From: Chondrosia reniformis
Lineage: Eukaryota; Porifera; Demospongiae; Chondrillida; Chondrillidae
DNA length: 64,000 nucleotides
Direction of reading: 5' to 3'
NCBI GenBank assembly: GCA_947172415.1
Contig: OX359202.1
Coordinates: forward strand, 1,428,501 to 1,492,500
A model generated the notes under the pieces. It was not told the DNA's origin and searched no databases. It was given only the letters and a program-made list of their open reading frames with translations. Position numbers and translations under genes: made by a program. Shown piece by piece: positions 705 through 63,945 of this stretch (positions are counted from its first letter, which is position 1; every line of letters starts with the position of its first letter).

Positions 705-14225
<13,521 letters not shown>

Positions 14226-19410: not shown

Positions 19411-19515
19411 AGTCCAGTGGAGAAGAAGAGAAGTAGAAGGAGAAAACTCTTGTATCCTCATCCAAACTCTCACTAGGTTTAGTTCCCTATAAGTCTTTTA
19501 CTCTAAAGTAGATGT
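19411..19515 (+). repeat. Family A repeat, 5'-truncated copy
   Basis: It starts at AGTCCAGTGGAGAAGAAG, within about three bases of the position that follows the predicted hammerhead cleavage site in full copies. It continues through CTCTTGTATCCTCATCC and TTTAGTTCCCTATA. It sits in the 5'UTR intron of the SERTA gene. Confidence 0.75.
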
Positions 19516-21056: not shown

Positions 21057-24000
21057 ATGGCGTCCTTGTACAGTGTAGCTGGCCATGGTTTGCCCTCCGG
21101 GTCGAAATGTAGTTATGGGAGTTGGCCTGGAGATTCATCGTGTTACTTCAATCAAACTGTATGGAGTTGCCCTTATAAGACGGTACTCTATTACACGATA
21201 CTCGGACACTTGTATAGAAGGACGCTCTGTGTTACGTAACTTGTAGCTAGTGTCTGCTTCATAGATTATTAAATATGGATATCTATATAGGCACTAAGTG
21301 ATTGATACGATTCATATGATCAAGGCCATTGCTAAAAATATTAGTTTGACGTGGTACCAAAGATTAGATTACTATTTATTTACTCATTGCACGAGTTCTC
21401 CCATGATTATGATTAAAGTATATATACACACTGACAAAAGTAAGTATTGGATGAAGATCCGATGTTCTTCCTCACTGTGTCAGACAGCTATTCCTATGAA
21501 GTGCACTCTTCATCAGCGACCTGTAGATTTTCTACCACTTTAATACTCTATTAGCATGCTGTAGTGTTGGTATAGTCTCTCTCAGTAACTAGATTGCTCT
21601 CAAGTCACAACTCGGTATTTGTATTCCTTTACAAATGTTCTATATACAATCTGCACTCATATTATTGGAATGTTCAATTGTATTTGGTTAACTTCTCTTG
21701 TCTCCAGTGTCCTTGCACGTACGTACCCCATTACAGTAATGAGACCAGTTGTGCTGCTTTTGATGGTACTGCTTACACTGACTCAGGTGCCGCATATGTG
21801 CTCATTGCTGCTATACTTGTGTTCTTCATGGTAAGCTATGCTGCTGTGTACAGTGAAATATGTTTGAACGTTCACCTCTCTAAGAACAGTATATACATAG
21901 TAAACCCTTTTAAAGTTATTCACATACAATTACTTGTGTAATACAACAAGTGTGTGTGAGTGTGAGTGTGAGTGTGAGTGTGAGTGTGAGTGTAAGTGTG
22001 AGTGTGAGTGTAAGTGTGAGTGTGAGTGTTGAGTGTGAGTGTGAGTGTGAGTGTGAGTGTTGAGTGTGAGTGTGAGTGTTGAGTGTGAGTGTGAGTGTGA
22101 GTGTGAGTGTGAGTGTTGAGTGTGAGTGTTGAGTGTGAGTGTTGAGTGTGAGTGTTGAGTGTGAGTGTGAGTGTGAGTGTTGAGTGTGAGTGTGTGTGTT
22201 GAGTGTGAGTGTGAGTGTTGAGTGTGTGTTGAGTGTGAGTGTGAGTGTTGAGTGTGAGTGTGAGTATGAGTGTTGAGTGTGTGTTGAGTGTGAGTGTGAG
22301 TGTTGAGTGTGAGTATGAGTGTTGAGTGTGAGTATGAGTGTTGAGTGTGAGTGTGTGTTGAGTGTGAGTGTTGAGTGTGTGTTGAGTGTGAGTGTGAGTG
22401 TTGAGTGTGAGTGTGAGTGTGAGTGTTGAGTGTGTGTTGAGTGTGAGTGTGAGTGTTGAGTGTGAGTATGAGTGTTGAGTGTGAGTGTGTGTTGAGTGTG
22501 AGTGTTGAGTGTGAGTGTGAGTGTGAGTGTTGAGTGTGAGTGTTGAGTGTGAGTGTGAGTGTTGAGTGTGAGTGTTGAGTGTGAGTGTGTGTTGAGTGTG
22601 AGTGTGTGTTGAGTGTTGAGTGTGAGTGTGTGTTGAGTGTGAGTGCAAGTGTGAGTGTTGAGTGTGTGTTGAGTGTGAGTGTAAGTGTTGAGTGTGAGTG
22701 TGTGTTGAGTGTGAGTGTGAGTGTGAGTGTTGAGTGTGTGTTGAGTGCGAGTGCGAGTGTGAGTGTGAGGTGTGGGTGTGTGATGTTATCTTTCACTTTT
22801 TTCACTTTAGAAAGCTGGGTTTATGCTTTTAGAATCAGCCTTTGCAGAATCTGACAGGGAAAAGCGTGAAATCATTATAGCTGTCAGTAATGATGACTCA
22901 TTGATTGGTGTTGGATGCCTGTAACATTACTGTTTTGTTTTTAGAAAAATGTGGACGTGTTTGCCAGTGCAATGGGTTTCTTTCTGTTTGGCTGTGACTA
23001 TGTATTTGGGGTCGCCTTGATATACAAGGATGCTCCAATTCCAAACGAGTTCTTCTCTATTCAGCAGCCACTCATTTGGTTTTTCAAGGTATTTGTAAAG
23101 TCAGGGAACATTTGTATGTGTATTTCTGCCTACATGTATAGTAACTGTATTTATGGAGGCTTTTTGTACTTACTTGAATGTTATAGTTTACATTTGCAAG
23201 CAATACGGCCACTCTGATTGGTGGATGCCTAATTAATTTCAAGTACCACATGAGGCTAATTTCAGTTTTCATCAGTGCTTTCATTATTAGTGTGAGTTGC
23301 ACAAACTATACATTTTTGCACTATCAGTATTACCTATCAGAGAGTACAGTAGTACTCTCTACATAGGGATGGCCGAAAACATGGCCGCCCTTTCCAATGT
23401 ATTATCCAATATCACTTCATAAATCAACAATGATGCGATTTTTATATACGTATATACATTTGATTGTGAGATTTACACAACCAACATTTAGCTGTTTGGT
23501 TTTATCTATCGTTGCCATGGTAATGGGATGGAATGCCACTTACATGTGCATCCCATTAACTGGTCACATTCACGGGATCGGACTATATGTGCAATATCTG
23601 AAAGCTTTCTAATAAGTAGCTATAGCGATGGCCAAATAACATGGCTGCCCTAATTTCATTGGATTGTGACATATAGAAAATAAAGGTGTTACTGCTTTGG
23701 ATATGGCCTATCTCTGTCCTATTGGCCAGTGTGTAGGTTGCTGTCCTATCGTCATGACAACGAGATATAATTCAGTTGCAGTCTAGAGAGCTTACATTTA
23801 CATATGTATTGCACTGCAGTGTACATGTAATAGGGACACGTAATAGAATAAGGATTTCTTCTAACTACCTGGAACTTATCTCTTGATTGGTTCATCTTTG
23901 ACTTTTGAGCGTCTAAGAATTGCCGAAGAAGACCCCTTAGGAGAGAAGTGTCCATCAAATGATTGAACCAACTGCATCCTTAAGATGAGCCATTCAAAAG

Positions 24001-27000
24001 AAACACTCTTTATAAATTATATTAGGTTGTATTGAAATGGCTGGATTGCTGTGCATATTAAGCCTTCCTTCATTTTAGGGAGTTTTGCATCCAGTTGTTA
24101 CAAGAGTTATCTGGGGTTACGATTGCAAAACATCCTCTCTCTCCCCATACCGCTTCTGTGTATCTCCGTGGACCCAGGGTTATCTTGGTTGTAACTACAC
24201 TTGTGATAAAATTAAAGAACACTTTCTTGAAAGAGTGTATGCAGTTGACTTTGCCGGTGGAGGAACTGTTCATCTCCTTGGTAACCTAGCATTTATCCAT
24301 CCCATTACACATCTCCTTGGTAACCTATCCATCCCATTGTATGTCTCCACGGTATCCTATTTCCTTCTCTATTCCTTATAAGCATCTCCATGGTAACTTA
24401 TATAATCTGTGATACATCCACTCCAAATGTATATCTCAGGTGGTGTTATGGGACTGGTTTTATGTCTGTTTGCAAAGCATGCCAAATATAGAGACTCAAA
24501 GAGTAATGACTTGGTGAGTTTATACAAGAATCAATGGTCATTCATTACTTGACAGTTGCTTTACTGAATCATGTTTGTCCTATTTCTACAGGTGGAACTT
24601 GATGCAATAGAGAAGAAGAAAAGGTAGTTAAGATCATGCAGAGTATATTCTTCTTATGTATACATGTGTACTATAGCATGTAAAGTGTATTCTTATATAT
24701 ACATGTGTACTATAGCATACTGTATAGTAAGATACTTTCACAGTTAGAAATTTTTGCGAATTTTTGAAAATTAATGTTTACTATTCTTATTTTTGCGAGT
24801 GGCAACTTGAATATCAAGAAAAATGGTGGAAGAAACTTTTACAATTTGGGATTAGCTAACAAAAATGGTCCTTGTGACCTCTTTCATTGGTTTAGATGTT
24901 TGTTTCAATAGCTTTACCAGCTGTTTAAATTGTGTCACATTTTTGAATATCTATTAACCTTTTTTTAACTATAAATGAATACATTGTACTAAAGGTCATA
25001 ATTATGCATAATTGAGGATAATCAGCTTCACTGTCTTCATTGTAAGATATACCTCTCTTATTCTATTAGAGTTGTTGTTACGTTTCTTGTGTTAAATTGA
25101 TTGAAACTGGCATTAAAACAATTGAAATACTAAACAAACTGAAGTCTTAGAGTGATTGATTGTACAAGTTGTCAAAATCACTAAACTATGGATTTATCCA
25201 GACATTTGACTTTCAAAACTTAAAATTAGTTTTCAATTGTGAAGTTATAACTGTAATTCGTTGTACATTTGAGTCATCAATATGATCTATCCCCCTTTAT
25301 TAATGTAAATGCATACATCTGATTGCTGCAGCAGGATGAAATTAATCTCCCACTGAGTTACAATAGCCTCATTTTGTAATTTTCTGTCTCTTAAAATACT
25401 TTTTGAACATCACCTTGTGAACATGTTTTATTTCCTTGTTTGTATAGGCACTAACATAATAATAATAATAATACATTACATTGTGTGAGTGTTAAATGTT
25501 ACATTGAAAATAGGTAATTGTGGTTCAATTTATGTATCACTTTAATTTTCCACATGTATCAATGTTTGGCTGTGCTTTGGTAAAAAAGTAGTTTTGAGAA
25601 TGTTTTTTCAAATGTATCTATTGGATGGTTCATCCTTTGACTTTTTGAGCGTCTAGAGATACAGTTTAAACTTTAGTCAGACATTTTGACCCCGCGGGGC
25701 TCTTCTTCAGTTACTTCAATGCACATGAACATGCTATTTCAGGCAGTTATATAATTAATAAAGCTTCTTAAATTTAGTTTCTTTTTGCAGTTTTTTTCAG
25801 ACAATGTATCCAGTTGGTGGAGGTAAGGAGGAAAATGTTGAGAAAGCCGCTCTTGGGGTCCTCATTCTCTGGTTTGGATGGTTTGCCTTCAATTGCGGCT
25901 CTGCAGAGAACATTAGTGGTATGTACGTATGTATGAAGAATTGAGGTGATAACCAAACCACAACTGTTTAATCATATGTATGTCATCATGTAAGAGGGAA
26001 GCATGAAAGAAGAGCAATTGCTTAGAAGCAAACCTCTACCACTTAGTGATGGTTGCCATAGTGATGCATTTAAAACACATGAACCTCTTATGCTTACTAC
26101 TAATTCATTTACATATTTAGTTCCATTTTGGAGATGTATGTTGTTAACATTGAAATAGAAACTTAAAAACTAGAAGTGTAGGGATATCTTATTATGACCC
26201 TGCCTTAATGCATTATCACCTAGGTAACCAACTGTAGTTGTAGGCCACGATATAAGACAGTGTATGGAGTATACGTGACATTGTATTGTGATTTTTGGGT
26301 ATCCCTAAGAGGCAGGACATATGTGTGTTGCCATAACAGCCAGAAAAAGCTGTCTGGCCCATTGAGAAGACAAGTAAAAGGAGAAACTCTTGTATCCTCA
26401 TCCAAAGCTCTCATTAGATATAGTTCCCTATAGGTCTTTACTCTGAAGTAGATGTAGCATGTAAGAATAATGGTGTGTTTGATTATCTGTGTGTCACCAC
26501 TTTCTGTAAAGAGTGAGGACTGGCAGCTGAAGAGCTGTAGTCTTACACAGCTGTTTAGGCCTTAGTGAAGCTACAATTTATCAGATATCATCCGCTCCCA
26601 TCCTGTCTTATGTGTTTTCTATTGGTATACAGTACGTACATATTCATTTAGGGATATTGAGTTTTACATGTGTACCCTCATATCTAGGAACACATGAATA
26701 GTTTTAGTGATAATCAAACCACAAGTATTCATTTAAAGAGGGAATTACATTATAAAAAGTATATATATATATATATAACTATTGGGAATATTCAATCCAG
26801 GATAGCTGGTTTTAGCAGCCAGTGCTCTGTCACTGAGTAATAATTTCCACAACCTCACTCTATATTATCCATTAGCTTCTCTAGTTTTAAAATTAAACAC
26901 TGAAATAGTTGTGGTGTAGCTACCATGGTGATTAGATGGCTTCCCATTGTGTCCTATATATACCTCATAGGTGGGACTATATATGGATCAGAGGGATACG

Positions 27001-35954: not shown

Positions 35955-38900
35955 CTATCTTGTTTCATCTATAGGTAACAAAGTTCTTTCGTCGTACTTT
36001 GAAACAGGTTCCCCTATAATTCCTATAATTTTATCCAGAGCGTTATCGAACCTAATTTAAAAAGGAAAGAGAAATTAAATTAAATTCTAAGATACTTAAG
36101 TGCTTGAAAGGGTAACAGAAGTGAAATAAATTGCAATTCAACATTATTACAATTCTATGAATGAATCAATGTGTTTCAGCCAATGGGTAATAGAGGCCAT
36201 ACATTATAATGGCTAACAATGTACAACTGCATGCATACATTTAAAGGCTTAAGAAATCATTACCTGTTGCCCTTGGCCCATTTTCTCTCTCCCTGCTCCT
36301 CCATTTCATCGCATTTAGTTTCATTGGTTGGGATGTAAGGAGGTTGAAAGACCCAGGCAGCACTATCCTTCGCTGTTGGCAGGACAGATGACAGCATTGG
36401 AGTTCTTGATCTTGTACTGTGCAGCAAAGGTATGAATAATCAAAGTGATAATCAAACCACAAGTAGTTATAATCAGTCAAACATCATAAAAAGGGAGCAA
36501 TTGCTGGGAATCGAACCCAGGACAGCTGGTTATGACCACTAGCTGCTCTGTCACTGAGCTACAATTGCCACAGCAATGCCTCCTCATGCTTGTATGTGCG
36601 CAATTACTGTTATTTCTGAGTGCAATAATTTTATAATATCAAATTGGCTATGCTAAAATCCATGGTACAGAAATAGTATTGGAATGTGACTAGGGATGAG
36701 GTTATTACGTATGTTTATATTATTATAAACAGAAAGTAAGGATTTCTTATGAGTTATCCTAACACAATCTGGTATAAACCCTTAAAATCTTAAATAGCAG
36801 CTATTCAGAATTTGCAACTGTATCTTGTACAAGCGTATACAGTTTTAATGTGTTTCCATTAGATGGCTCATCTTTTGACTTTTTGAACAACCAGATACAT
36901 ATTTTAGTTGCTTATGATCAGACTTTCAACCGTGTGGGTGTTCTTTGGTATATCTAGATCCTTAAAAAGTCAAATGATGACCCATGTAAGAGATGAATAC
37001 TCAAGCACTATGACATAGGACAAGTTTGTTATTTTAGTATAGTAAATTGTATGCAACAACATTATAAATTCATCATAATATGTACATTAACATACCTACT
37101 GAGAATACCTCCTGATAATGCCTTCCTATATAGTGGGAGAATGATGCAAAAAGCATTATTTACCAATTTTGAGATATGTACGTACGTAAGAAAGACATGA
37201 ACAATGGCAACCCATTAACAACTTGAAGCATTGTGAAAATGGATACCATGCTTATAGTGAAAATTTGTACTTACAACTTTGACCCGTCAATGCTTTGATC
37301 CTCAAAGTCTTTAAGAGAAAAGTAGATACAGTAATAATTTACTAAAACTTCTATATTTGGTCATAATAAATGCACTCACCATTAGACTCACCAACTTCCT
37401 CAAGGGGAATTTCCCTATTAAACGTTGATGTTCTAAGAAGCCTAATAAGGAGACAGGTGTTGTGAGTATAAGCTCATTAACAACATTGCAGCATCTGTGC
37501 ATAGGGTACACCAAACTGACCTGCCAACTTCATTTTGAATTACTGACCAATGCTGGCGATGGAACGTAATCCATGCAATACGCATTAAATATTCATAAAA
37601 AACCTGCACCAGGAAATATTGTATATATGTACATAACTGCATTACTCAGTACTGCCAATTCAAGTACAGCACAAAGAAGCAGAAAAGAGTAAAAAATGAC
37701 CCTGCCCAGGATTGAACTGGGGACCTTGAGTGTGTTAGACTCACGTGATAGCCATTACACCACAGGGTCACATCCGACAAGCTGTTGCTAGGTAACCTAC
37801 TTATGGCTAATAAAGACATTTTGTAGAAGCAAAAAAGAAAAAAAATGCAGGTTCCTGGTTTGGATTGAAATCTTCAGTGATACTAGCCAGTTACCCCTAC
37901 AATGCTATTTTTCAATGATTTACTCAACCACATAACCCTTGTGCACTGAATAATGTGTACATATACGTATGTACGTATATACAAATTATATAGGGTACTT
38001 GTTGCGGTCATTATGATTATGAATTCTGTGAGCATCAGCAACATTTACTTAACAGGTAAATTTCAAAATGCTTGTTACTAACTACGTATATCTGACGAGG
38101 ACCTACAGGTCGAACCGTTCTTAAATTCTCCTGTTAAATAAGTGTTGCCGATTGTCAAGAAATCATCATCATAATCATCTGTATACATATACACTATCAC
38201 TGGAGGACTTACATCATAAAATTCTCTATCTGCTCTAGTTTTTGAACACCTGGATCTAAAATTTACCAGAAAAAAAGGTAAATTACAGAATTTGATTTTG
38301 GATAATTTATTGACAAACTTTCCAGCTTTCATGTGATGAAATTCCTCTATCTTAACCCCCAGAATTAAGGAGCAATACAAATTGGCTAATATCTTTCTAG
38401 AAGTCTCCAATCTCTCCTTAGCAGCTGCTATGTTAGTCTGTCTGTTATTATTACTGATAGCAAACTCACTACATAAAGTTAATAACAATATGGCACAGGT
38501 CTGTATACATTCTTTAGCCTATAGTAATTCATATGTACTTACATACGTACATACGTATGTATGAGTATACTAATTTATTGAGACTCAGCAACAATTGTAT
38601 TTAAAAACAAATTGAACGTTTGTGAAAAATGTTTTCGAATCCAAATTTAAATGGTACATACGTACGTACATATATGAATAAAACTAATATATTATCAGTG
38701 AAGAGTAAGTGAAAGTTCACATGATCCATTACTTAATAGACCTAGCCAACAGAATACCTTGTGTGCATGGTTTCCTTTAAAATGTAATACATACTTAATA
38801 AATACCCACATACTGTATACTGTATACGTATACGATGATAAGCAAAAAATTAATCACTGGAAAGTATTACGTCAACCAGCCAAGTGACCGAAGTCTAATC

Positions 38901-40984
38901 TCTTGGCTGGGGGACCAAAGTCCTATTAAATTGGCAACCAGTGATGGCCTCCCAGTCACTTGGCTGGTTGGTATAATACTTTCCAGTGAATATTTTTTGC
39001 TTATCATCGTAGCCTTTGCACGGCTCAGTGCAATTAACTCCCATTATTCATTGTATGTGATGTAGAGCAAAAGTGTACGTACCTTGACGGATTTGTTTGA
39101 ACACATTCCAGAAAGTCTCTCATGTACAGAAGTAGTTGCCAAATAAAGTCATCAATTTCTGCCAGTCTAACACAACAATATTACAGAAGCATATTTAAGT
39201 TATTTCTCAAACAGTGTATCACTCAAAGTCTTTTAGTTAAGGAATTAACTGTATATGCTAAAGGACTTAAGAAAGAAGACAAGAAGACAAAGGTTCACTG
39301 ATGAAGAAGAGTGGAATTCCCAGAAACAGGTTCATTAGAAAAAGAAAAGGAAATGAACTACTTACATCCTCATCTAAATTCTTCCTTAACCTCTTACCAT
39401 GTTTATAGGAAAATGGTATTGTATATTATTCAGGTATAAAATTCCGTCCGAATAATTTTAAAATTTAATGGTTTACTTGTCTCTGAGGTTTTCCCAAACC
39501 ACTCACTTGAAGAAATGATCAAAAATTGTGATGGATTCTTTGCCCATCTGACGAATTTTATCACTGCTTATGTAGTCAATGGCAACCACTACAAACACAA
39601 AATACATAAAGTATGTACATTACATACAGCTAAAGGTCACACAGGGTGCATGTGACTCAGTGGAGAAGAAGAAGAAAGAAAAGACAAGTCTCCTGGACCT
39701 GTATCTTCATTCAAAGCTCTTTCCAGGTTTAGTTCCCTATAGGCTTTTTTACAGAGTAGGCATAGCAAGTAGGAAAATGGTGTATAGATTTTAATGTAAG
39801 CATACGTACATAATAAAAAAAGGATCTTTCATAACAATAATCATTTGGAAATGGGATGGTGCATCTTCTAAACCTTTTAATACCTAGTGATGCAATATAT
39901 TTCCTTTAGAAAGTAAACATTTTAAATTCTGTTCTCATCAGATGCTCCATCTCAAGAAGGAGCTGTAACTACGTAAGTTATGCAGAACATATGAGAAAAT
40001 AAACCAGCTTATGGGTACATGTTCAATATCCAGAGTCATATGATGAGATGTCACAGCTTTAAGATCGGCTTTAGATCTTAAAGTCCTCCATATTCACACG
40101 TAAATATTTGTAGAATAGACAATAAACCTGCGTCTTTAGACACACTAAAAGTCGAAAGATGATCCTTTCAAAAGATAAGTTTGACGCAGTTAGAAGGAAT
40201 CCTTACTCTATTACATATTTGTACTTGGTCTGTATCATACAGAGAGAGGGATCATACGCACGTTTAACCTGCTTCAGTTGCACTTTCTCCTTCAATTCAT
40301 CACTCACAGCTACATCCTCATGCTTCCTTATAAGGGCATATATTGCATCAAAGTTTGCCCTAAATGGTACAAAATGAGTCAATGAATAACAACACAGTCT
40401 TGTATCACAAGAAGAAGTTCAATATTAGCGAGAGAATACTTGTTGAAAGCTAGTGGGTCATTAATCAAAACACTTCAAAATTAAAAGAATTTATGCCATG
40501 TACGTACATAAATGTATGTGCATTTCATTATAGGTTGCGTAACAATCTAAAACACCATTTAGATATGGTTGACAACACAAGAGACCAAGGATACATTAGA
40601 CCATATTCCTCAACTTGCACCTTATACATATATATACATAATAGGGACATATAGTTTTGGACAAGGAGACATGTTATTATTACAGTTATGCTATACTGTT
40701 ATTGCATGTATAAGGGCGCATAATGGATACGTATATAATTCTGCGTGTAATCTGCAATACTACAGACTATATATAGTCTATATTAAGGTCTTTACCGAGC
40801 TTCCTTCCTTTGAGACCTCTTGCCTTCAGATTCCTTCCTATACAGGGAAAATAAAGAACGTCTCATCACTGACTATATATAGTCTGCTGCACATGTTAGA
40901 TATGGAGGAGACTTACTCCGCTTCAAACTCCAGCAGATCCACGCCTTCTGACCAAACCCACTTTCCCTTGGCACCAAGAGACGG
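35955..40984 (-). CDS. PPP1R36-like protein (protein phosphatase 1 regulatory subunit 36), 5' end incomplete
   Basis: Minus-strand exons: 40984-40917, 40837-40796, 40359-40269, [gap], 39588-39507, 39166-39083, 38468-38319, 38255-38213, 37603-37521, 37441-37380, 37308-37275, 36416-36264 and 36051-35955 (TAG). Phases chain except between 40269 and 39588, where a small exon must be missing. Landmarks are GKWVWSEGVDLLEF near the N-terminus, LANLYCSLILGVKIEEFHHM, REFYDVFYEYLMRIAWITF, RQHWSVIQNEVGRLLRTSTF and a C-terminal IIGIIGEPVSKYDERTLLP. The layout (LILG...HHM, AWI-FRRQH, EEVGRLFRT) matches my memory of PPP1R36, a testis-enriched PP1 partner in mammals. The identification rests on pattern memory. 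The first coding exon and ATG are not resolved. Confidence 0.6.
36430..36600 (-). repeat. Family B tRNA-derived SINE
   Basis: The minus strand reads GCAATTG TA GCTCAGTGACAGAGC ... T-arm CTGGGTTCGATTCCCAG then CAATTGC, so acceptor, D- and T-stems all pair. The central arm has an extra two bases and no proper anticodon loop. The tail AATCAAACCACAAGTAG (plus strand) is shared with the other copies. It lies just upstream of an exon of the PPP1R36-like gene. Confidence 0.8.
37697..37769 (-). tRNA. tRNA-Val(AAC)
   Basis: A complete 73-nt cloverleaf: acceptor GACCCTG/CAGGGTC, D-arm GTGTAATGGCTATCAC, anticodon stem TGAGT/ACTCA with loop CTAACAC (anticodon AAC), variable AAGGT, T-arm CCCAGTTCAATCCTGGG and discriminator A. 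A T6 run follows at once, as a Pol III terminator. D-arm and variable region match eukaryotic valine tRNAs. It lies in an intron of the PPP1R36-like gene in the same orientation. Confidence 0.88.
38000..38160. repeat. Foldback with CTGACGAGGACC...GGTCGAAC core
   Basis: Arms around CATCAGCAACATTTACTTAAC and GTTAAATAAGTGTTGCCGAT enclose CTGACGAGGACCTACAGGTC-GAAC. It has the same lead (TTGCGGTCATTATGA) as the foldbacks at 15187, 45198 and 63915. Confidence 0.65.
38833..39009. repeat. 177-bp foldback MITE, TA-flanked
   Basis: Ends CGATGATAAGCAAAAAATTA and TATTTTTTGCTTATCATCG with a TA duplication. Arms of about 70 bp include CACTTGGCTGG and its complement. It is intronic. Confidence 0.85.
39255..39400 (+). 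repeat. Family A repeat, hammerhead without cleavage triplet
   Basis: It keeps the lead, GGTTCA CTGATGA, stem II and GAAACAGG, but the GUC and 3' helix I strand are replaced by unrelated sequence. The motif is therefore incomplete. A second, separate family A copy starts at 39653. Confidence 0.7.
39653..39790 (+). repeat. Family A repeat starting at the predicted cleavage site
   Basis: It begins TGACTCAGTGGAGAAGAAG, the exact continuation after GUC in full copies (TGACCCAGTGGAG). The preceding bases (GGGTGCATG) are unrelated to the hammerhead. It ends near the TACAGAGTAGGCATAGCAAG segment. Confidence 0.8.
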
Positions 40985-41252: not shown

Positions 41253-43058
41253 ATGTCGTGGAGGCGCTGGGAGCGAGCTGCTAAGCTGTACGGAAAAACC
41301 CGAAGACCTGTGGAGAAGATCACAAAATGGAACATTGTCAGAGGAGATCTCGTAAGTGTTGGAACACTGAATAGAGTGATACCCTTAACTACTAGTGTGT
41401 TACGGAATGGCGGAGAATGTGGTGTACTTGTGCAGGTTCAGATATTAGCTGGTAAAGATAAAGGAAAACAAGGGAAGGTTAACCAAGTGATCCGGGTACG
41501 GAATTCGGTCATGGTGGAGGGACTGAACACAGTAAGTACTTGTGCACATAGTGACAGTTTGGTTAACTGGATTTGGTCCCCCATTTTAAGTTAAGATTGT
41601 ATTGCTTCCCACATAGCACATTCGTATATTACCAAAAACAGACAATTTTAAAGGTGGAAGGATTCAAAGTGAGGCTCCACTGCACGTCTCCAATGTAGCC
41701 TTAGTGGATCCATCAGACAAGTTAGTAGTCAGTACTTGTGTTTGCAATATATGTCCATATGACATCAAAATGAGGCTGAAGGATTGTTGGTGGAGGAGGT
41801 AGAGATAGGGAAGGGTTTTGGAAGGGCAGAGGAGAGAGATGGGAGGGGCAGGGGAGAGAGATGGGAGGGGCAGAGGAGAGAGATGGGAGGGGCAGGGGAG
41901 AGAGATGGGAGGGGCAGGGGAGAGAGATGGGAGGGGCAGGGGAGAGAGATGGGAGGGGCAGGGGAGAGAGATGGGAGGGGCAGGGGAGAGAGATGGGAGG
42001 GGCAGGGGAGAGAGATGGGAGGGGCAGGGGAGAGAGATGGGAGGGGCAGGGGAGAGAGATGGGAGGGGCAGGGGAGAGAGATGGGAGGGGCAGGGGAGAG
42101 AGATGAGAGGGGCTAGAGAAGGATTTGGGAAGGGGGAGTAGAGGAGGGTTGGAGAGGGGTAGAGTAAGGGTGATACATATATAATATACCAGTTGTACTA
42201 CTGTATGGTTATGATTTATGGGTGAGGGTGCAAGAGTTTTCTACTTCTCCTCTCTCCACTGGTCAGACAGCTGTTTCTGGGAGTTCCGTCCCTCATTAGT
42301 GACCCTGGGAATATTTATCTCCTTCCTGATCTTTAAGAGTCCTTCATCCTAGGTGTGTGTGCATACCTTTCAACTGGCTTATACTTCCATTGCTTGTAGT
42401 CTTCCATGTCGTGTCAAGTACATGTACACAGAGGAGGGGCAAAAGGTGCGAATCTCAAGAAGAACAGGTACTGTTGTACCAAAGCCTCCTGAACTCAAAG
42501 ATCGAAAAGACTTCAAGAGCAGAGCTACTTATATAGGTGGGTGTGTCTGAACATATAGGTGGCTGTGTCTGAGTGTATAGGTGGGTGTGTCTGAGCATAT
42601 AGGTGGGTGTGTCTGAGCATATAGGTGGGTGTGTCTGAGCGTATAGGTGGGTGTGTCTGAGTGTATAGGTGGGTGTGTCTGAGCGTATAGGTGGGTGTAT
42701 CTGAACATATAGGTGGCTGTGTCTGAACATATAGGTGGCTGTGTCTGAGCATATAGGTGGCTGTGTCTGAGCATATAGGTGGGTGTGTCTGAGCATATAG
42801 GTGGGTGTGTCTGAGCATATAGGTGGGTGTGTCAGAAGGAAGTATATTAGGGATTAGGTAGTTTACTTTCACTTACGTATGTAAATATTTATAAAGTCAC
42901 TCGGTCACTTGTCTATTGTAGAGGGTGAATTGGACACAAAGGCGGAGGCGGTCACAAAGGTCACATATATTCCTTCACTAAACAGCTTTGAAAATGATGT
43001 CTTGATATCACTAGGAAGGGAGGATGAAATTAAAGAAAATAAGTGTAGTGAACTGTAA
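41253..43058 (+). CDS. MRPL24: Mitochondrial large-subunit ribosomal protein L24 (uL24m)
   Basis: Exons 41253-41351, 41436-41531, 41617-41720, 42400-42536 and 42922-43058 (TAA) give 190 residues with consistent phases. The KOW motif is clear ([20 protein letters not shown]) and is followed by [10 protein letters not shown]. Later come [15 protein letters not shown] and [20 protein letters not shown], all typical of mitochondrial L24. The protein binds 23S-type rRNA early in assembly of the mitochondrial large subunit. The 84-nt first intron is a multiple of three and stop-free, so reading through it would insert 28 residues. I treat it as an intron because splicing joins GDL to VQILAGKD as in homologues. 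Introns 3 and 4 carry minisatellites. Confidence 0.9.
41815..42112. repeat. 22-bp purine-rich minisatellite in mRpL24 intron 3
   Basis: About 13 copies of a 22-bp unit containing GGGGAGAGAGATGGGAGG. The strong purine/pyrimidine strand bias is the kind that can form triplex or G-rich structures. Open frames through it are repeat artefacts. Confidence 0.95.
42205..42350 (-). repeat. Family A repeat with mutated hammerhead core
   Basis: The minus strand reads GGGTCA CTAATGA GGG...CCCA GAAAC AGCT GTC TGACC. The core G5 is changed to A (CTAATGA), which should abolish cleavage. Helix I and the GUC are kept. It lies in mRpL24 intron 3. Confidence 0.75.
42537..42832. repeat. 22-bp minisatellite whose unit contains the exon 4 splice donor
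   Basis: About 13-14 units of GTGTCTGAGCATATAGGTGG plus two bases begin exactly at the donor of exon 4. Exon 4 ends ATATAG|GTGGGT, and every unit repeats ATATAG-GTGG(G/C)T. Confidence 0.93.
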
Positions 43059-43886: not shown

Positions 43887-46800
43887 TTAGTCTACTTCAA
43901 TATATTCCGTATCAGATTCTTCTGGCTTAGTTTTCTTGGCAGTTGGGGTTAAGCTAGCACCTGTCCGTTTGGTACCAAGTGGAGTTGCAGTCTTCCTTCG
44001 GCTACCAATCTTCTCCACGACTTTCACATCTTCCTCGGTCAAAGAACTAGCACTCTCTGTTTGGTCTCTTGAAGCATTCCTTTCAACGGGCCTCTTTGCA
44101 GATGGTTCAATACCACTCAACTTGCAGATTTTCACAACTGGTACACTTTTCAAGTTTGTCTTATTCTCCATCTCGGATGAAGATTTAGTTTCTGTCGGCT
44201 GAGATTTGGAATGTGAGTCTTGACTTTTTGCGTCTCCACTTTCTAGGTTTAACTTTTCATCTGATTGATGTGGAGAAGACACTTGCTTTTTCTCTGAAAT
44301 ATCTGCCGTCTTCTTCATTCCCTTGACATCAGTTTTCTTTGACATTTGAGGGAGTCTGTACAAGTTGAAAAGTAAAATACACAGAAACATGTGTCTGGCC
44401 CAAATGAAGAAAGGGAAGAAAGTTGGTATATACGTATGCTACTCCAAAGCTCTATATATAGGCTTCCCTAAGCGATAGGTCAAGAAAAACATTATATTCT
44501 GAAAATATTTCTTGGTCTCACACTGATGTCAACCATATCCATAGGGGAGTGCATGGTTTTGTTGATCATTCATAAACTTTCAGCTTCATATATTATATGT
44601 ACGTATATACGTATACAGTACAAGTTACAATATATCTATATCTGTGCTAGTCTTATATATGTATAAAATGCACAACACTAATAGTTGCACTTCTTGTAGG
44701 GGTAAAAAATTATAAACGAAGACTACCAGTTTACAAGACTGCTTCTATGTCAATACAAGGATACTCCCAAGGTGGTATGAATAACCAGAGCTATGTACAG
44801 TCAAGGACTCACAAAAGATCAACAAGAAGACAAATATTCCCAGGGTCACTGATGAAGGGTGGAATTCCCAGAAACAGTTGTCTGACCCAGTGGAGAAGAA
44901 GAGAAGTAAAAGGAGAAACTCTTGTATCCTCATGCAAAGCTCTAACTATTTGGCCTTTATTCTAAAGTAGAAGTATAGCATGTAATAAAAAGATGTGTTA
45001 TAGATTTATTTCATATATACTTACTTATGTACGCACCTTGTCTTGGTCGATGGCAAAACAACATATTTGTTCATAATACTGTCCACCTCTCCTGGTGGAG
45101 GCCGGTAGCTCTGCCTGAAAGAGGAAGAAACAAAACCACAAAAGACAATAACAACCAGGAGATGTACTTAACTGTATATGTAGCTATAGTGAAGTGATAA
45201 GGAGTAATTTTAGTTGCGTTCATTATGATAGATAAGTTTATTGGAGCTATCTGCAACGAAAATCAAGCTAGATTGAACCTTCAACCCGTTATTGCTGATG
45301 AAGACCTACGGGTCGAAATGTTCAATCTAGCTCAATATTCGTTGCAGATAGCTCCAATAAACTTGTCTATCGCAGCTACGTATAGTGATACAATAGCAAA
45401 GTTAATGCTTAATGAATGACATATATAGTTAGCATGTGACAAATAACAGTAGTCTATGTATGTACTCAATGTAAAGGTAAACTTTAAGACTTGCGATAGC
45501 TAGCTATAGATATTGTGGCATATACAGTTGGTTGAAGTTGTATATACAAATCTGTATTGGCCAATTAAATTTAGTGTGTTTACTAACAGGCATACAGTGG
45601 CTATAGGAGAATGGTAAATTAATAATTATATCATCAAAATCACAAGTGCCTGCCTGAAGTTTATAATGGTATAGCATGTTATTGTGTTTAGTATATAAAG
45701 TGCTACACTACACTACACTACACACACATGTACACTTAAAGGTACTTAATTCTTAGATAACTACAGCCTTATAGAGTTGGAGGTGCTCAGATTAATGCAA
45801 CATCATGTACCTTCCCTTAGTGAGCTGAACAGATGCCAGTTTGGTTTCTTTGCCAAATCGACACCGTATCTTATAGACTGATGCTAGCCTGGATAACTAC
45901 ATACAGGGTATAAAAAGTATAAAATGGTAAACATTTGGCCCAGTGGAGCAGAAGAAGAAAAGAAAGGACTCCTGATTCTTTCGTATATCAATAATACCAC
46001 ATGGTTGGGGCATATACTATATTGAGGGGGCAACTAGTCAATATTAATAGAATAAGGATTCCTTAGAACTGCATCCAACTTATCTTTGGGATGGTACATC
46101 CTTCGACTTTTTGAGCGTTTAAAAACGTAGTGAGTCACTGAAGAAGACCCCCAGGGTCGAAACGTTTGATGAAGAAACGGAAACAAACTGCGTTTTTAAA
46201 CGCTCAAAAAGTCGAAGGATGTACCATCCCAAAGATAACTAGTCAATATGTTTGCTTTTTATTAAACATTTACAATGTAATTTTATAAGGTGGAGCAAAA
46301 GCCCTCCTCAAAAGAGACCCTGTACACACATCAGATGAAAGTAGTTAGTGTATGTATAAGCATGTTACTAAACTTAGAACATACTTCACTTCTTTCTTCA
46401 ACACTGAGCGGCGGGAGACTTAACCTAGACAGAGAAATTAAAAATTCATATAATAAAACGTATGCATGGAGCCAGAGAACATTCTCACTGTTCACGGCCA
46501 CTATCTTCAACTAGCTTGATTAGCAAAGTGTTAAATCGAATCATCAAGTTCAAATCTGGAATTTGAGTCTGTAGTTACAGTAATAATTAATTTATGCAGA
46601 TGTCATGTCAGAGAGTACATCTAGTATATACCCTACTAGAATACACAGTCTATTCAACTAAGTTGAGGTACAGTTTCATCAAAATCACGGCAACTTTGAT
46701 CAGACTAAACACACTTATGCAGGTATATGTACGTATATGTTTAGAATCTCAACATCTTTCCTATAATATTTTCACCTCTGAGAACAGTGCTAGAGTGTTA

Positions 46801-48278
46801 TAATCACTCCCCAAGTGGTTGCATATCCATTTTTTGTCAACTTCATCCATCTCAGACACTTGAGTGTTGCTGCTTGCATCAATCATTTCTGGTTTTGGTG
46901 TTTCCAAAATCCTCAGTTTTCTCTTAAGATTTCCCATACCTAAAATAAAGGATTTTAGTAACTTTAATGATGGGATTGATTGCAGAAATGTACTGACATG
47001 TGTTCATTATGTGTATATTGAACATACTTATACTTTGTCGTCTCCTCAAATGATCTATTTCACATGTCAAGGAGTCATTTTGCCTTTCAAGTTTAGAAAT
47101 CTCTTCCTCTATAGGAAGTACCGAAAGAGAAACAAAACGTCTGTATGTACAGTATTTTTTGGGTCGGTTGTCCAGACCGGACGTTGCAATTGGTAACCGG
47201 TAAAAGGTTAACGCTACATCTGGACAACCGACCCAAAAAGTACTGTACTAACCCTTGGAATTGCTACCATCGCCAAGACACTTTTAAACACATTAGGCCA
47301 CTTTTACTAGCCTGTGTTTCTATTATATTTACTGTGTATTATGTAGACATGTATACCATACCTAACTTTTTAACTTTCTCTTTGTACTGCAAAGTAGCTG
47401 TCTCGATTTGTTTGGCTAAAAATCCATTTTCTAACAAAGTAATAGTGAGAACTTTGAGACTATATAGGAATTTCCATACTCAAGAATTATAACATGTACA
47501 CTATACCCGATAAATTTAACCATCTTTTCCATTAGTAATTCCTCATTGAATATTTTGTTACTCCTATTCAAAGAGTTATACTTTCTGTCCCTGTTACGTC
47601 ATCATTTTACATATAAACCACTCCTTGTTTGTGTCATATTGCACTGAAGATGGCAATTGTATGATTATCGAAACGATTGTAAATTAAAGAATTTGGTTTC
47701 ATTTGACTAGTGTACGTGTTATAATTCTTGAGCAAAGTAATAGTATCGTGTATAATACACAACTTTAAAACCAGAATACAAATGAATACAAATTGAATAC
47801 AAATGAATTCAATTGCCTCAAACATGACCGCATGATCGTATTCCCATATTTTGATGTCATGCCTATGCTAGCCCTTAGCAGTTACAAAACTTGTTCATGC
47901 TATATATCATACATCAAGATTCCCAGGGTCACTGATGAAGAAGAGTGGAATTCCCAGAAACAGCTGTCTGGTCCAGTGGAGCAAAAGAGAAAAGAAAAGA
48001 AAAGGAAAGACTCCTGTATCTTCATCCAAAGCTCTCTCCAGGTTTAGTTCCCTATAGGCGTTTTTACAGAGTAGGCATAGCATGTAGAAAAATGATGTAT
48101 TAGATTTTTGATACAATTTACCTAGAAAAGCTATCTTCATGATACGTTGAATCTCTTCGCAGAATGCCAAGAAGCCCGCCATATAAACTTCAGGTGAGCT
48201 TTTTAGTCGAAGAGACTTGACAGCCGACTCTAACAACTGTTCCACAGTTCGAAAACGATCTTGAATTGGGGTTTCCAT
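43887..48278 (-). CDS. Unrecognised coiled-coil protein, 405 residues
   Basis: Minus-strand exons: 48278-48122, 47430-47362, 47108-47034, 46939-46776, 46568-46489, 46424-46385, 45896-45811, 45114-45037 and 44355-43887 (TAA). Every junction has GT/AG and the phases chain to 405 residues from a true ATG (METPIQDRFRTVEQLLESA). The first 52 residues look helical. A coiled coil follows at about 53-115 (KLEEEISKLERQNDSL). A middle region contains LIKLVEDSGREQLSLPPLSV, and the C-terminal 160 residues (last exon) are Lys/Ser/Glu-rich, low-complexity and probably disordered. I cannot assign a family. Length and composition would suit a nuclear or cytoskeletal scaffold, but that is a guess. Introns carry several repeats (family A at 44800 and 47915, foldbacks at 45228, 46079 and 47150). 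Confidence 0.75.
44800..44990 (+). repeat. Family A repeat, full-length copy
   Basis: It contains the lead (AGGACTCACAAAAGATCAA), the intact hammerhead motif at 44843-44888, the purine stretch, CTCTTGTATCCTCAT and the 3' end (TTCTAAAGTAGAAG...GATGTGTTA). It is intronic in the coiled-coil gene, opposite to the gene's strand. Confidence 0.85.
44843..44888 (+). ncRNA. Type I hammerhead ribozyme motif in family A repeat (copy 2, best match)
   Basis: GGGTCA (44843-44848) and TGACCC (44883-44888) form six Watson-Crick pairs of helix I. Between them lie CTGATGA (44849-44855), stem II with GGG/CCC, GAAAC (44871-44875), loop AGTT and GTC (44880-44882). Stem III is only two base pairs (A-U, C-G), as in short type I hammerheads of animal repeats. 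Predicted cleavage is between 44882 and 44883. The innermost stem II pair is A-A instead of G-C, the one weak point. Confidence 0.68.
45228..45375. repeat. Foldback with CTGATGAAGACC...GGTCGAAA core
   Basis: Arms GATAAGTTTATTGGAGCTAT and the reverse complement at about 45345-45372 enclose CTGATGAAGACCTACGGGTC-GAAA. The core looks like a hammerhead half, but there is an extra A before stem II and no GUH site with stem III. Confidence 0.75.
45936..45985 (+). repeat. Family A repeat starting at the predicted cleavage site
   Basis: It starts TGGCCCAGTGGAGCAGAAG with no trace of the hammerhead core upstream (preceding AAACATT). Only about 50 bp are recognisable. It is intronic. Confidence 0.7.
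46079..46238. repeat. Foldback element with CTGAAGAAGACCC...GGGTCGAAACG core
   Basis: Arms of about 50 bp (TTTGGGATGGTACATCCTTC and its complement) flank CTGAAGA-A-GACCC-CCA-GGGTC-GAAACG followed by a small CGTTT...AAACG hairpin. Related arms occur at 23880, 25620, 36860, 40150 and 60480. Confidence 0.8.
47150..47245. repeat. 96-bp foldback MITE, TA-flanked
   Basis: Ends CAGTATTTTTTGGGTCGG and CCGACCCAAAAAGTACTG with a TA duplication, the same family as 28655-28829. It lies between two exons of the coiled-coil gene. Confidence 0.88.
47915..48105 (+). repeat. Family A repeat, full-length copy
   Basis: A short lead, the hammerhead motif at 47926-47974, then the body (TATCTTCATCCAAAGCTCTC, GGTTTAGTTCCCTATAGG) and the end (ACAGAGTAGGCATAGCATG). 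It ends about 15 bp before the first exon of the coiled-coil gene. Confidence 0.85.
47926..47974 (+). ncRNA. Type I hammerhead ribozyme motif in family A repeat (copy 3)
   Basis: GGGTCA and TGGTCC (47969-47974) pair over six positions with two wobbles. CTGATGA (47932-47938), GAAAC (47957-47961), AGCT and GTC (47966-47968) are intact. Stem II is three bases longer and less regular than in copy 2. Predicted cleavage is between 47968 and 47969. Confidence 0.55.
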
Positions 48279-54975: not shown

Positions 54976-55358
54976 CAGAACCATCTCCTAAAGTGTTAAC
55001 TTATACTTCTATCCATACTTTGATTACATAGGAATGTAAGCAGTATATAGTATATGGAAAAATAGGGGAACTTTAAGATCCCTAGTAAAACCAATCTAAA
55101 AGCATCAATATCATCATCATTAAACTCTTAGACTGGATATATATATACCCCTGCCCACTCATGTCTCCTGAGGAGCACAATGCAAAGTATACCGAAGACA
55201 AAAGGTTAAAGTGCATGAAGGAAGTAGCAAGAAGAGCTCAAATCATAACTCTTGTAACTCAGTGACTCATGGGCCCAGCTAGTGTACACACGCATGTATC
55301 ACTCTAATATACAGTTATTACTATTATAATAGCTATATATTAATGGTAATGGTAACAA
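54490..55358. other. Spacer with (TAA)n microsatellite
   Basis: About ten ATA/TAA units lie at 54507-54536, then unassigned AT-rich sequence around the exon 4 pseudo-copy. I see no other gene before the sulfotransferase stop at 55359. Confidence 0.6.
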
Positions 55359-59500: not shown

Positions 59501-62079
59501 ATATTATATACCATTGCCCCCCTAAATTTTGAAAATTTTCATCTTGCCTTCCCCCCATACGCCAAGTTCTGCATACAGCCCTGTAATGTATAGTATGGTA
59601 TATACTAGCAGTGCTGAGGATAACAGTTTCGTCATCAGCCAAATTTTCCAAGCAAAACATCGTTGGTGTAGACATACGAGATTTCAGTTACCTATTTCAG
59701 CACTGTACTGGATGTGTTGGGGTTGGTTGTGTGTATGGAGGAGTTATTGCATTAAGTCACTGCCCAATAGTATGTCTGTCAAGTAATGGATACTACTCCT
59801 GTAGTGACTTACTGGTCACTGTAATACCAATCGCTGATCACACTTTTTGTATGACATAACACTAATGCAAAATGTGTATGCAAACTTTTCAAACATGAAT
59901 GCTAAATATGGAAATTTATCATTATTGCCAATATCAAGTTCACTGATTTATGATATGTCATTTCTAAAGCAATCCTTCTGATCTTTGTTGTAGATCTTAC
60001 TGTCGAAGGGTGTGATTCTGGGCGGAGATATGACGGCGGAGGCTGCCTTGGCCAAGCTGTCGTATGTTCTGGCTAAAAAGGAAATGACTTTGGAGAAAAA
60101 GAAAGAAGCAAGTGCATGAATAATCAATGAGATAATCAAACCACAAGTAATAATCAATCAAACATCATAAAGAGGGAAAAACACAAAAGAAGCAATTACT
60201 GGAATTGAACCCAGGACAGCTGGTTATGACCACCAGTTGCTCTGCCACTGAGCTTCAACTGCCACAGCAATGCCCCCCTCATGCTCTCCCTCTTAAGCTA
60301 ACTATAACTAATTATTGGTTTACATTCTTAATTCAGTGGTGATTCTCTTCATCAGTACAAGCTGATAATCAAGACTACATACATACCTACACACACACAT
60401 GGACATGTGCACAATGTGCCACAACATTTGTATACATGGTAGTGATATAATAGAATGAGGATTTCTTCTAACTGCGTAAAGCTTATCTTTTGAAAGGATC
60501 ATCTTACGACTTTTAGAGTGCCTAAAGATGCAGTTTTGTTTTCTCTGATGATCAAGAGAGACAACAAAACTGCATGTTTAGGTGTTCTAAAAGTTGAAAG
60601 ATAATCCTTTCAAAAGATATATTGACTAAAATGGAATTGAGCAAACTTACTAATAGAACTAATTCCCCCTCCCCTTGTGATATTTTCTAAAAGAAATTCT
60701 AGCTACGTGTGTGTATTACAAAAACATAGGTATACAATATTTTTTTGTAAATGTAATTTTATAATTATTATAAAATTATTCTATTGAATTTTTACTAAAC
60801 TTTAAGCAACAGTAACACTTCTAAGATTTATCTCTCTCTATTACATTGTAAATTAGCCTGACTTCTCTTCTGATGCATTTAGATGCTCCAGAGGAACATT
60901 CGAGGTGAGCTGACCACATTAGTGGAAGACAAGCCTACTGAGGGACCAACCACTACCGGCTTCCTGCGGCTCTTAGCTCAGACAGTCGGACTTACATCTG
61001 AGAAGGTGGAAAACACTGGTTTAATGTACATACATATATTAGCGTATCTTGTAAATTTGTGCTGATTACTCCAAGAGGTTTCAGCTAAGTGTATTTCACC
61101 ATGGTAACTTCTACATGTCTTCAGGAGGTAGCAAACATGAAGACGTACCTGCTGCCCCAGTTAATGTGCTCTGCTGCAGCCAAAGGTGACATAGACACTC
61201 TTTTAGAACTGAAAAAACAGGTAAGAATTTATAGTTTACCAGAATTTATGATGAAACACCCTGTAGATTTACAGAGAGCCAAGGACTCACAAAAGATCAA
61301 GAAGAAGATAAATATCCTCAGGGTCATTGATGAAGGTTGAAATTCCCAGAAACAGCTGTCTGGCCCAGTGGAGAAGAAGAGAAGTAGAAAGAGAAAACTC
61401 TTTGTATCCTCATCCAAAGTTCTCACTAGGTATAGACCTTTATTCTAAAGTAGATGTAGCATTTACACTCAATCCTCCCTTATCCAGACACCTTGTAAAA
61501 AATGGTGTGTTAGACTAGTATATTCTTATATATAGGGGGGTGACTTTAGTCTTCCAGACTATGATAATCGAACTCCACTCCACATCGCATGCTGCCAAGG
61601 CCATTTTGATACTGTCAAGTTGTTACTATCTCATGGAGCATCAGTTCATATAAAAGACCGCTTTGGTCACACCCCTCTTATAGATGCCATTAAATTCAAG
61701 TGAGACTTTTTAATGCCACTCTTTATGTGGTACAATGTACCGTATAGCAGGAAATATTGGCGGGAAGAATATTTGGTGATTTGGGACAGATTTAAATATT
61801 GGTGGTTACCCATGTTACAATGGATTACATCACTATGATGCAATAATATTGGTGATTGGTGTGAAAATCGCCAATTCACCAAAATAAATTCCCCGCCCAT
61901 ATTTCCGGCTATACGGTAAATACTTAAAGCTAAAAATTGAGTTGAGTTTAAACTTTAAACCATATTCCTGATTTTGTTGTGATGTGATGTAGGCATTTCG
62001 ACATTATTAACCTGTTAGTTCAAACTGGAGCTCACATACAGACAGAAACTAACTTCTACATAGTGTCAGAACTATGTCA
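56512..62079 (+). CDS. ASPG: Cytosolic L-asparaginase with ankyrin repeats (ASPG-like), 3' partial
   Basis: Exons: 56512-56713, 56793-56910, 57053-57290, 57755-57838, 58033-58159, 58490-58602, 59247-59432, 59994-60107, 60883-61005, 61125-61220, 61536-61699 and 61993-62079, continuing beyond the window. Phases chain. The catalytic boxes are present: YTGGTIGM with the nucleophilic Thr, FDGFVVLHGTDTM with the second Thr-Asp, SDGRDN, and TKVDSSRMDAF with the Lys. LQPPMEGVILLSFGAGNVP and NCSQCARG follow. The C-terminal part holds ankyrin repeats (NRTPLHIACCQGHFDTVKLL, then HFDIINLLVQTGAHI). It hydrolyses asparagine to aspartate and ammonia in the cytosol. The mammalian homologue is also called 60-kDa lysophospholipase. 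Intron 8 uses a GC donor (GAA|GCAAGT at 60108). Confidence 0.92.
58700..58965. repeat. Long foldback in asparaginase intron 6
   Basis: Arms of about 110 bp: TTATTGAGCGTAATCGCAGC and its complement near 58935, and AACTGGTATAAAAAC with GTTTTTATACCAGTT. Both arms carry the GAAACGT motif beside a GGTCCTCGGATC-type box. It is intronic. Confidence 0.85.
60113..60300 (-). repeat. Family B tRNA-derived SINE in the GC-AG intron
   Basis: The minus strand reads GCAGTTGAAGCTCAGTGGCAGAGCAACTGG...CTGGGTTCAATTCCAGTAATTGC with the shared AATCAAACCACAAGTAATA tail. It begins about five bases after the GC donor at 60108. Confidence 0.8.
60455..60625. repeat. Foldback element, asparaginase intron 8
   Basis: Arms TATCTTTTGAAAGGATCATC and GATAATCCTTTCAAAAGATA enclose a loop with CTCTGATGATCAAGAGAG. 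One arm and its AACTGCG...TTCTAACTGC flank also occur singly at 40150-40210. Confidence 0.75.
61276..61510 (+). repeat. Family A repeat with C3-mutated hammerhead
   Basis: Full lead and motif: GGGTCA TTGATGA ... GAAAC AGCT GTC TGGCCC (61321-61366). The first core C is T, which should impair cleavage. Near 61465-61495 the 3' end is interrupted by an insert reading TCCCTTATCCAGACACCTTG. It is intronic in the asparaginase gene. Confidence 0.8.
61740..61916. repeat. 177-bp MITE with CCGTATAGC ends and TA flank
   Basis: Termini CCGTATAGCAGGAAATATTG and the reverse complement at the right end (GGCTATACGG) with TA on both sides. The ends resemble the 718-bp element at 53658. Confidence 0.85.
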
Positions 62080-63764: not shown

Positions 63765-63945
63765 CACACATGGATAAGAATAAAGCCTTGTTGAACATCA
63801 GTAACATAAATTTACTAATTCTGGACGTTTCAACCCGGAAGTCTTCATCAATAATACAGGAATGGGAATATCAAGTAGTAAATTAGTAAATTCGTGTTCC
63901 TGAAGCTCAACAAGGCTTTATTCTCATAATGATCGCAACAAACAC
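63765..63945. repeat. Foldback with GAAGAC...GGGTTGAAACGTCC core
   Basis: Arms GAATAAAGCCTTGTTGA and TCAACAAGGCTTTATTC enclose, on the minus strand, TTGATGAAGACTTCC-GGGTTGAAACGTCC. The minus-strand lead TTGCGATCATTATGAGAAT is shared with the foldbacks at 15187, 38000 and 45228. Confidence 0.75.

Follow-up and report, generated by a model that had tools for sequence, protein, structure and literature searches.

In a 64,000-nt stretch of chromosome 14 of the sponge Chondrosia reniformis (the window), an interspersed repeat, family A, carries a motif derived from a hammerhead ribozyme. Comparison of its copies across the genome (117,379,552 bp, 15 contigs) indicates that the motif is real and more than chance, and that the repeat, judged by its coding content and copy structure, is the pseudo-LTR (pLTR; LTR, long terminal repeat) of an apparently autonomous Penelope-like element (PLE). 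The explanation that we consider probable is that this pLTR holds a hammerhead with an A.A pair beside its core which self-cleaved the element's RNA in an older lineage, that the cleaved RNA was copied, and that a young lineage cleaves poorly or not at all. Positions below are those within the window, and cleavage-relative numbering takes +1 as the first base after the predicted cut.

The copy at 44843-44888 (+) reads GGGTCA-CTGATGA-AGGGTGGAATTCCCA-GAAAC-AGTT-GTC-TGACCC, with cleavage predicted between 44882 and 44883. The initial annotation had placed the motif there, at 6080-6125 (-) and at 47926-47974 (+), and the sequence read at all three places bears this out, with the 47926 copy lacking the 3-bp GGG/CCC stem II. 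It had also listed decayed copies; those at 21462-21523, 26340-26484 and 39261-39432 are indeed damaged, by truncation or internal deletion, whereas those at 61321-61366 and 42260-42305 turned out to be nearly intact. Its caveat that the innermost pair of stem II is A.A was justified: at positions 10.1/11.1, 98 distinct motif copies read A.A 67 times, G.C 24 times, A.T 4 times, and A.C, G.T and C.A once each, in a set that is non-random since most loci were gathered by similarity or by motif pattern. The 24 G.C copies are of a canonical, retrozyme type.

Genome-wide, the pattern CTGATGA-N(4-34)-GAAAC-NNNN-GTC has 2306 matches (1147 + 1159 by strand) versus 8 for the reversed pattern. Taken alone these counts show only a repeat, and the informative part is a second kind of match whose stems are canonical, CTGATGAGTCCTAATAAGGACGAAACAGCTGTC and CTGATGAGCCCAAATGAGGGCGAAACAGCTGTC among them, and for which a stricter pattern has 233 matches (119 + 114 by strand) versus 0 in the control. 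All five canonical loci that were scanned (L249, L250, L252, L257 and L265) score 34.6-39.4 bits against Rfam Hammerhead_1, where the threshold is 34. Across seven canonical motifs, 96.4% of helix cells are paired, a level reached by 7 of 500 shuffles, and the covariation score exceeds that of all 500; family A was excluded from this covariation count, as its stem II is out of register in the MAFFT alignment with the canonical motifs. A covariance model, R1, was built from seven canonical motifs of the C. reniformis genome, none of them from family A, and run with filters off. Its five best matches in the window are all family A copies, in the order 47926, 44843 (E = 2.2e-5), 61321, 6080 and 42260 (the other E-values are in Table 1), and the sixth-ranked match has an E-value of 1.6. 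Family A itself combines CUGAUGA and GAAA core boxes with an NUH cleavage triplet and an open helix I, as expected of type I hammerheads (RF00163). The proposal of the initial annotation that this is a type I hammerhead motif with a GUC triplet and a very short helix III is backed by R1 and by the clustering of 5' ends described below, with cleavage itself a prediction.

Family A copies show two kinds of 5' end. Twelve of the 41 copies with long flanks start at -89, -88 or -87 (the count leaves out three further rows, which are unrelated motifs). In longer copies the -89 point lies 30 bp downstream of a TATA-like TATATAAG, so that we presume it to be the transcription start, with the predicted cleavage site 89 nt downstream; the window copy at 44799 starts at this point. 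The second kind of end emerged from a sample drawn independently of the motif, namely 160 copies chosen by anchors that lie 3' of the cleavage site. The anchor TAGGTTTAGTTCCC occurs 1721 times in the genome (control 1) and supplied the 100 copies listed, while the anchor CTTGTATCCTCATCCAAAGC occurs 627 times (control 0) and supplied the first 60 of 100 listed places outside the first set. Mapping of the 5' ends used 19 reference entries, 13 for one anchor and 6 for the other, and 13 copies with little match beyond the anchor were dropped, leaving 147. An alignment break within -60..+60 is present in 71 of these, or 51 after identical 5' flanks are collapsed. Nine of the 51 independent breaks lie at -1..+2 (p = 7e-6 versus a uniform distribution) and 18 lie at -1..+6 (p = 6e-10), with two at -1, four at +1, three at +2, one each at +3, +4 and +5, and six at +6.

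Starts at -1..+3 are found in 18 of 104 raw older copies (ten independent events) versus 0 of 43 young ones. The genome-wide counts follow the same split. A 19-mer of the older subfamily that begins at +1, TGGCCCAGTGGAGAAGAAG, has 354 exact copies in the genome, of which 217 are preceded by GTC and 185 by GCTGTC, so that the loss across the three bases at the site is 39% versus 15% over the next three (p = 5e-10). In the young subfamily, 1222 copies fall to 1096 across the site (10% lost), and two of the places lost, L143 and L159, are simple mutations. The excess of older-copy starts near the predicted cut is a hint of past self-cleavage of the RNA inside cells. Separately, the same 19-mer matches eight times within 440 bp at C2:756961-757398, mostly 25 or 50 bp apart; this array, by its repeat spacing, is a minisatellite grown from the first bases past the predicted hammerhead cleavage site.

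The motif has changed less between the two lineages than its flanks. Between older and young copies (14 vs 10), the motif differs at 3 of 46 columns and the trimmed flanks at 57 of 199 (p = 0.001); counting substitutions alone, the figures are 3 of 46 vs 31 of 173 (p = 0.07). In the young motif, GGATCA stands against TGACCC, so that the fourth helix I pair is an A x C mismatch; pairs 1-6 of this helix form in 29, 29, 29, 1, 30 and 30 of 31 young copies, respectively.

A number of observations weigh against cleavage by the family A motif. Rfam yields no hammerhead match at E <= 10 anywhere in the window, in the 101 bp around the motif, or in the family A loci L031 and L046, so that the Rfam check put forward in the initial annotation came out negative for family A; the same scan recovers canonical hammerheads of the genome in five loci as a positive control (34.6-39.4 bits). 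In the four matches with a displayed alignment, R1 skips the family A stem II as an unaligned insert, so that the boxes and helices I and III supply its score. The G10.1-C11.1 pair that closes stem II, and that matters for metal binding and hammerhead activity, is replaced by A.A in family A. Even for the canonical motifs, the three pairs with two-sided change are matched by 131 of 500 shuffles, and RNAfold minimum-energy folds lack the full hammerhead in family A and canonical copies alike. The cluster of 5' ends is broader than one nucleotide, with six independent events at +6 and four at +1, so that stalling of reverse transcriptase (RT) at helix I may account for part of it; the ends at +8/+9 coincide with a run rich in purines, in which the limits of the alignment are uncertain. 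Indel breaks, rather than 5' ends, make up at least four of the 51 (L127/L128, L188, L196/L203 and L124/L165); all lie outside -1..+6, and without them the p-values are 3e-6 for -1..+2 and 1e-10 for -1..+6. The 354 copies of the 19-mer are not all independent, as the array at C2:757 kb adds eight and some neighbours look duplicated; in the first 100 listed places, with duplicates collapsed by eye, the loss is 28 of 83 vs 8 of 55 (p = 0.009). Finally, the PLE Poseidon of Anolis carolinensis (PAc) has a hammerhead near the junction of its pLTR and open reading frame (ORF), with an internal start of reverse transcription there, and according to the portions of the paper available it shows no RNA-seq ends at the hammerhead site, inserts without cleavage and cleaves only with added protein (PMC11167929).

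These points bear on the strongest rival explanation, which we hold to be unlikely but serious: that the motif is an inactive relic of an active hammerhead, killed by the A.A pair before the visible copies arose, and that the ends come from RT stalling, either at the stem of helix I or at TGGCCC, which is GC-rich. In its favour, the motif goes unrecognised by Rfam, 67 of 98 copies carry A.A, and six of 51 independent breaks lie at +6, roughly the position expected if RT halted ahead of the helix I 3' strand. A young lineage that keeps the motif with its helix I mismatch, without ends at the site, also agrees with it. Stalling at helix I, as the main rival source of the ends, would explain those at +6 better than those at +1 and +2: it predicts ends at about +7, yet -1..+2 holds nine of the 51, and even the three bases directly ahead of +1 show a large genome-wide loss. 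Moreover, five of the six helix I pairs persist in almost all of the 31 young copies, yet the pile-up at the site in that lineage is 0 of 43. The lower divergence of the motif than of the flanks between the lineages also speaks against a dead motif, though weakly when substitutions are counted alone.

The identity of the element rests on the arrangement of its copies and on its coding region. A genome search with 320 bp of L040 as the query yielded 42 matches from 40 scored candidates, each a 318-320-bp unit at 100% identity (rounded), and at five places two such units stand in direct orientation 3500-3501 bp apart. The element unit is ~3.5 kb, with a fixed 3' end and variable 5' truncation: in 30 copies compared (L059-L088) the 3' end TTTTTCAT is constant (...ATTTTTCAT), while homology on the left stops at many distances, and paired copies extend unequally leftward, from 180 bp to at least 1500 bp. 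Five copies (L072, L077, L079, L081 and L087) continue rightward from the fixed 3' end into one common internal sequence. In L077, a stop-to-stop open frame starts 57 bp past the pLTR and matches the GIY-YIG endonuclease domain (PF01541) at 22.6 bits, equal to the cut-off, and at the opposite end of the same element, L066 has an open frame with an RVT_1 match (PF00078) at 26.7 bits, under the cut-off of 29.6. Both pieces are free of stops, and the GIY-YIG piece is also open in four further loci and the RT stretch, which has a YIDD box, in seven of eight further loci. By spacing, the two pieces share a frame, with the intervening 183 bp unread. The order is pLTR-GIY-YIG-RT-pLTR with the endonuclease N-terminal to the RT, and since GIY-YIG precedes RT, the domain order is permuted. 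GIY-YIG together with RT is diagnostic of PLEs, and the head-to-tail partial copies with fixed 3' and variable 5' ends behave as pLTRs. The RT piece had no match at E <= 0.01 among solved structures, tblastn found no match at E <= 1 to the PLE coding pieces in the window, and target-site duplications were unconvincing in two copies examined. By homology to this element, the family A repeats of the window are its solo pLTRs. The initial annotation was correct that family A is an interspersed repeat, but the repeat does not stand alone; it belongs to a PLE, an element type that the annotation had named in passing.

A different identity, in which family A is an independent short interspersed element (SINE) or the solo LTR of an LTR retrotransposon with an incidental hammerhead-like string, is very improbable. 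It is true that many copies are short and lie dispersed and that the 318-bp unit contains a TATA-like box; near-identical pairs at a distance of 3501 bp also resemble LTRs and had raised the suspicion of an LTR retrotransposon. That candidate was rejected on the unequal left homologies and the internal GIY-YIG and RT sequences, and a SINE was rejected on the same homologies and because the unit belongs to a coding element; 5' ends that vary against a fixed 3' end speak against both. The window scan called no tRNA at family A copies, a 5S or other polymerase III head not having been looked for. Least probable of all is that the hammerhead likeness is a chance string spread with the element, which the A.A pair, the Rfam miss and the ability of a single, often copied founder to beat the reversed-pattern control would allow, but different ~355-bp units of the genome have GAAACAGCTGTC in common while their helices I and II differ in sequence yet are complementary, R1 built without family A ranks five family A copies first, and 5' ends cluster around the predicted site.

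In the explanation that we favour, a PLE pLTR with a once-active hammerhead, the element's RNA would start at -89, and in the older lineage part of it would have cleaved itself at the hammerhead despite the A.A pair beside the core. The element's RT would have copied the cleaved RNA from the pLTR tail, giving ~155-bp copies that begin at the cleavage site, while uncut RNA would give ~245-bp solo copies that begin at the transcription start. The young, recently amplified lineage, with its A x C mismatch in helix I, would cleave poorly or not at all. The pLTR hammerhead may be related to, or may have converged on, those of the genome's retrozyme-like units. A further-reaching reading, which we offer tentatively and with somewhat more doubt than confidence, is that these copies form a fossil record of PLE hammerhead cleavage: the A.A hammerhead would have worked in cells and fed cut RNA to the RT, and the later-expanded lineage with its altered helix I has no cleaved-end copies, as if escape from cleavage had favoured longer, promoter-bearing insertions.

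Type I hammerhead motifs in the pLTRs of PLEs were reportedly described by Cervera and de la Pena in 2014 and by Lunse et al. in 2017. Like the known ones, the Chondrosia element encodes GIY-YIG and RT, bears a type I motif in its pLTR, and is present both in tandem or partial-tandem arrangements and as numerous scattered short copies; it is unlike them in the A.A at 10.1/11.1 and the N-terminal endonuclease. Permuted domains with an N-terminal GIY-YIG are said to mark the PLEs of the Naiad/Chlamys group (Craig and co-workers, 2021), to which we liken the Chondrosia element by domain order alone, GIY-YIG lying upstream of RT and, in Chondrosia, in the same frame by spacing. In the available parts of the literature, known PLE hammerheads are minimal and without helix III (PMC7761336, PMC6155905) and their role is given as unknown (PMC7761336); family A differs from the motifs described there in its helix III/loop ACAGCTGT, which is that of the genome's retrozyme-like units. 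From what the accessible text of PMC11167929 reports, PAc has a C-terminal endonuclease, unlike the Chondrosia element, its cut site lies 26 bp inside the ORF, and its in vitro insertion proceeds independently of the ribozyme; RNA ends at the cut site were unseen in PAc, whereas Chondrosia genomic copies cluster near the predicted cut. An internal start of reverse transcription as in PAc would explain the abundant solo pLTR copies of Chondrosia. Some retrotransposons carry ribozymes at the RNA 5' end, as stated in the portion of PMC7761336 available (with L1Tc in its reference list), and they are similar in that a self-cleaving motif is proposed to process the RNA 5' end; those ribozymes belong to hepatitis delta virus-like and twister classes and to other element types.

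The canonical hammerheads of the genome occur in units that resemble retrozymes. Three of 17 canonical loci fetched by place are direct tandems with 355-363-bp spacing, picked because the listing showed neighbouring canonical matches: L249 has four copies, L250 two plus one inverted, and L251 two (a dimer by sequence only). Other canonical matches occur as inverted pairs in the place lists. With tandem units in the ~150-450-bp range and a canonical type I hammerhead (above the Rfam threshold for L249 and L250), these three loci are apparently sponge retrozymes. They resemble metazoan retrozymes, as presented in the available part of PMC7229834, in their direct tandems and canonical type I hammerhead; family A differs from those in having no tandem ~300-bp unit and in that the full element encodes RT. 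The words 'sponge' and 'Porifera' do not appear in the main text of PMC7229834 as far as it was available. Family A also stands apart from retrozymes in its single or pLTR-arranged copies and its coding internal region. The retrozyme-like units share GAAACAGCTGTC with the PLE and possibly, by eye, a AGTTCCCCTAT / TTTTC-CAT 3' tail, and the PLE is a candidate for mobilising them.

Table 1. Family A copies in the window and the parts of the hammerhead motif at 44843
Feature	Positions	Strand	Basis
Solo pLTR copy, older subfamily, from presumed transcription start (L040:1445, ~-90) to 3' part	44799..45007	+	Self-comparison, genome copies
Helix I 5' strand GGGTCA, 6 Watson-Crick pairs with 44883-44888	44843..44848	+	Sequence, model match
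Core box CTGATGA	44849..44855	+	Sequence, model match
Stem II AGGGTGGAATTCCCA: A.A at 10.1/11.1, then 3 G-C pairs, 7-nt loop	44856..44870	+	Sequence
GAAA box; 2-bp helix III (AC/GU) with loop AGTT; GUC triplet	44871..44882	+	Sequence, model match
Helix I 3' strand TGACCC; 44883 is the first base past the predicted cut	44883..44888	+	Sequence, model match
Hammerhead motif in pLTR copy 5941-6149 (-)	6080..6125	-	Model R1, 24.8 bits, E 0.00015
Hammerhead motif with altered stem II in pLTR copy 47916-48114	47926..47974	+	Model R1, 28.2 bits, E 1.6e-5
Hammerhead motif with TTGATGA box in pLTR copy 61264-61458	61321..61366	+	Model R1, 26.1 bits, E 6.1e-5
Hammerhead motif in pLTR copy 42223-42344 (-)	42260..42305	-	Model R1, 21.0 bits, E 0.0018
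pLTR copy, homology starts at +1 after predicted cut	39653..39792	+	Self-comparison
pLTR fragment, homology starts at +1 after predicted cut	45936..45968	+	Self-comparison
pLTR copy, homology starts at ~+5	19414..19499	+	Self-comparison
pLTR copy with internal deletion: CTGATGA kept, cleavage site lost	39261..39432	+	Self-comparison
pLTR copy truncated at -15, within motif	26340..26484	+	Self-comparison
Degraded remnant of motif region	21462..21523	-	Self-comparison

Among the copies in Table 1, that at 61264-61458 reaches upstream to ~-106, beyond the presumed transcription start. The window also holds a second hammerhead-like string of ~36 nt (the CTGATGAAGACC..GGTCGAAATGTTCAAT type), found at 45295 (+), 19586 (-) and 63822-63855 and also at L049:1192-1227, in surrounding contexts that are dissimilar; in form it resembles the minimal hammerheads of PLEs that lack helix III. 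The string at 45295 sits in a ~145-bp inverted repeat (45227-45371) that is 82% identical to its own reverse complement. Remnants at 38824-38958 (-), 55051-55182 and 40026-40094 are 77-87% similar to parts of the canonical units L045/L050 and L041/L057, and the matched parts exclude the hammerhead. Long inverted repeats at 46080-46238, 47145-47250 and 58760-58899, for which Rfam plant and animal microRNA precursor scores are below threshold, are possibly palindromes of the miniature inverted-repeat transposable element type. Sequences resembling tRNAs (Rfam, ARAGORN) lie at 36493-36569 (-), 60191-60262 (-), 28954-29025 (+) and 37696-37770 (-), and some of them may represent tRNA-derived SINE heads instead of genes.

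Our search, from which subscription papers were mostly absent, found no open-access paper linking 'hammerhead ribozyme' with 'Porifera'. As far as this mostly open-access literature was searched, a PLE hammerhead in a sponge, A.A as the usual state of a family, the combination of permuted domains with a hammerhead and the 5'-end footprint all appear to be new. Family A would put to the test how much change at the 10.1/11.1 pair a natural hammerhead tolerates, and it offers an older, apparently cleaving lineage and a young, apparently non-cleaving one side by side. Inserted copies of this kind can serve as a record of where RNA 5' ends lay, so that the question of whether such RNAs were cleaved would be open to a census in any genome with such elements.

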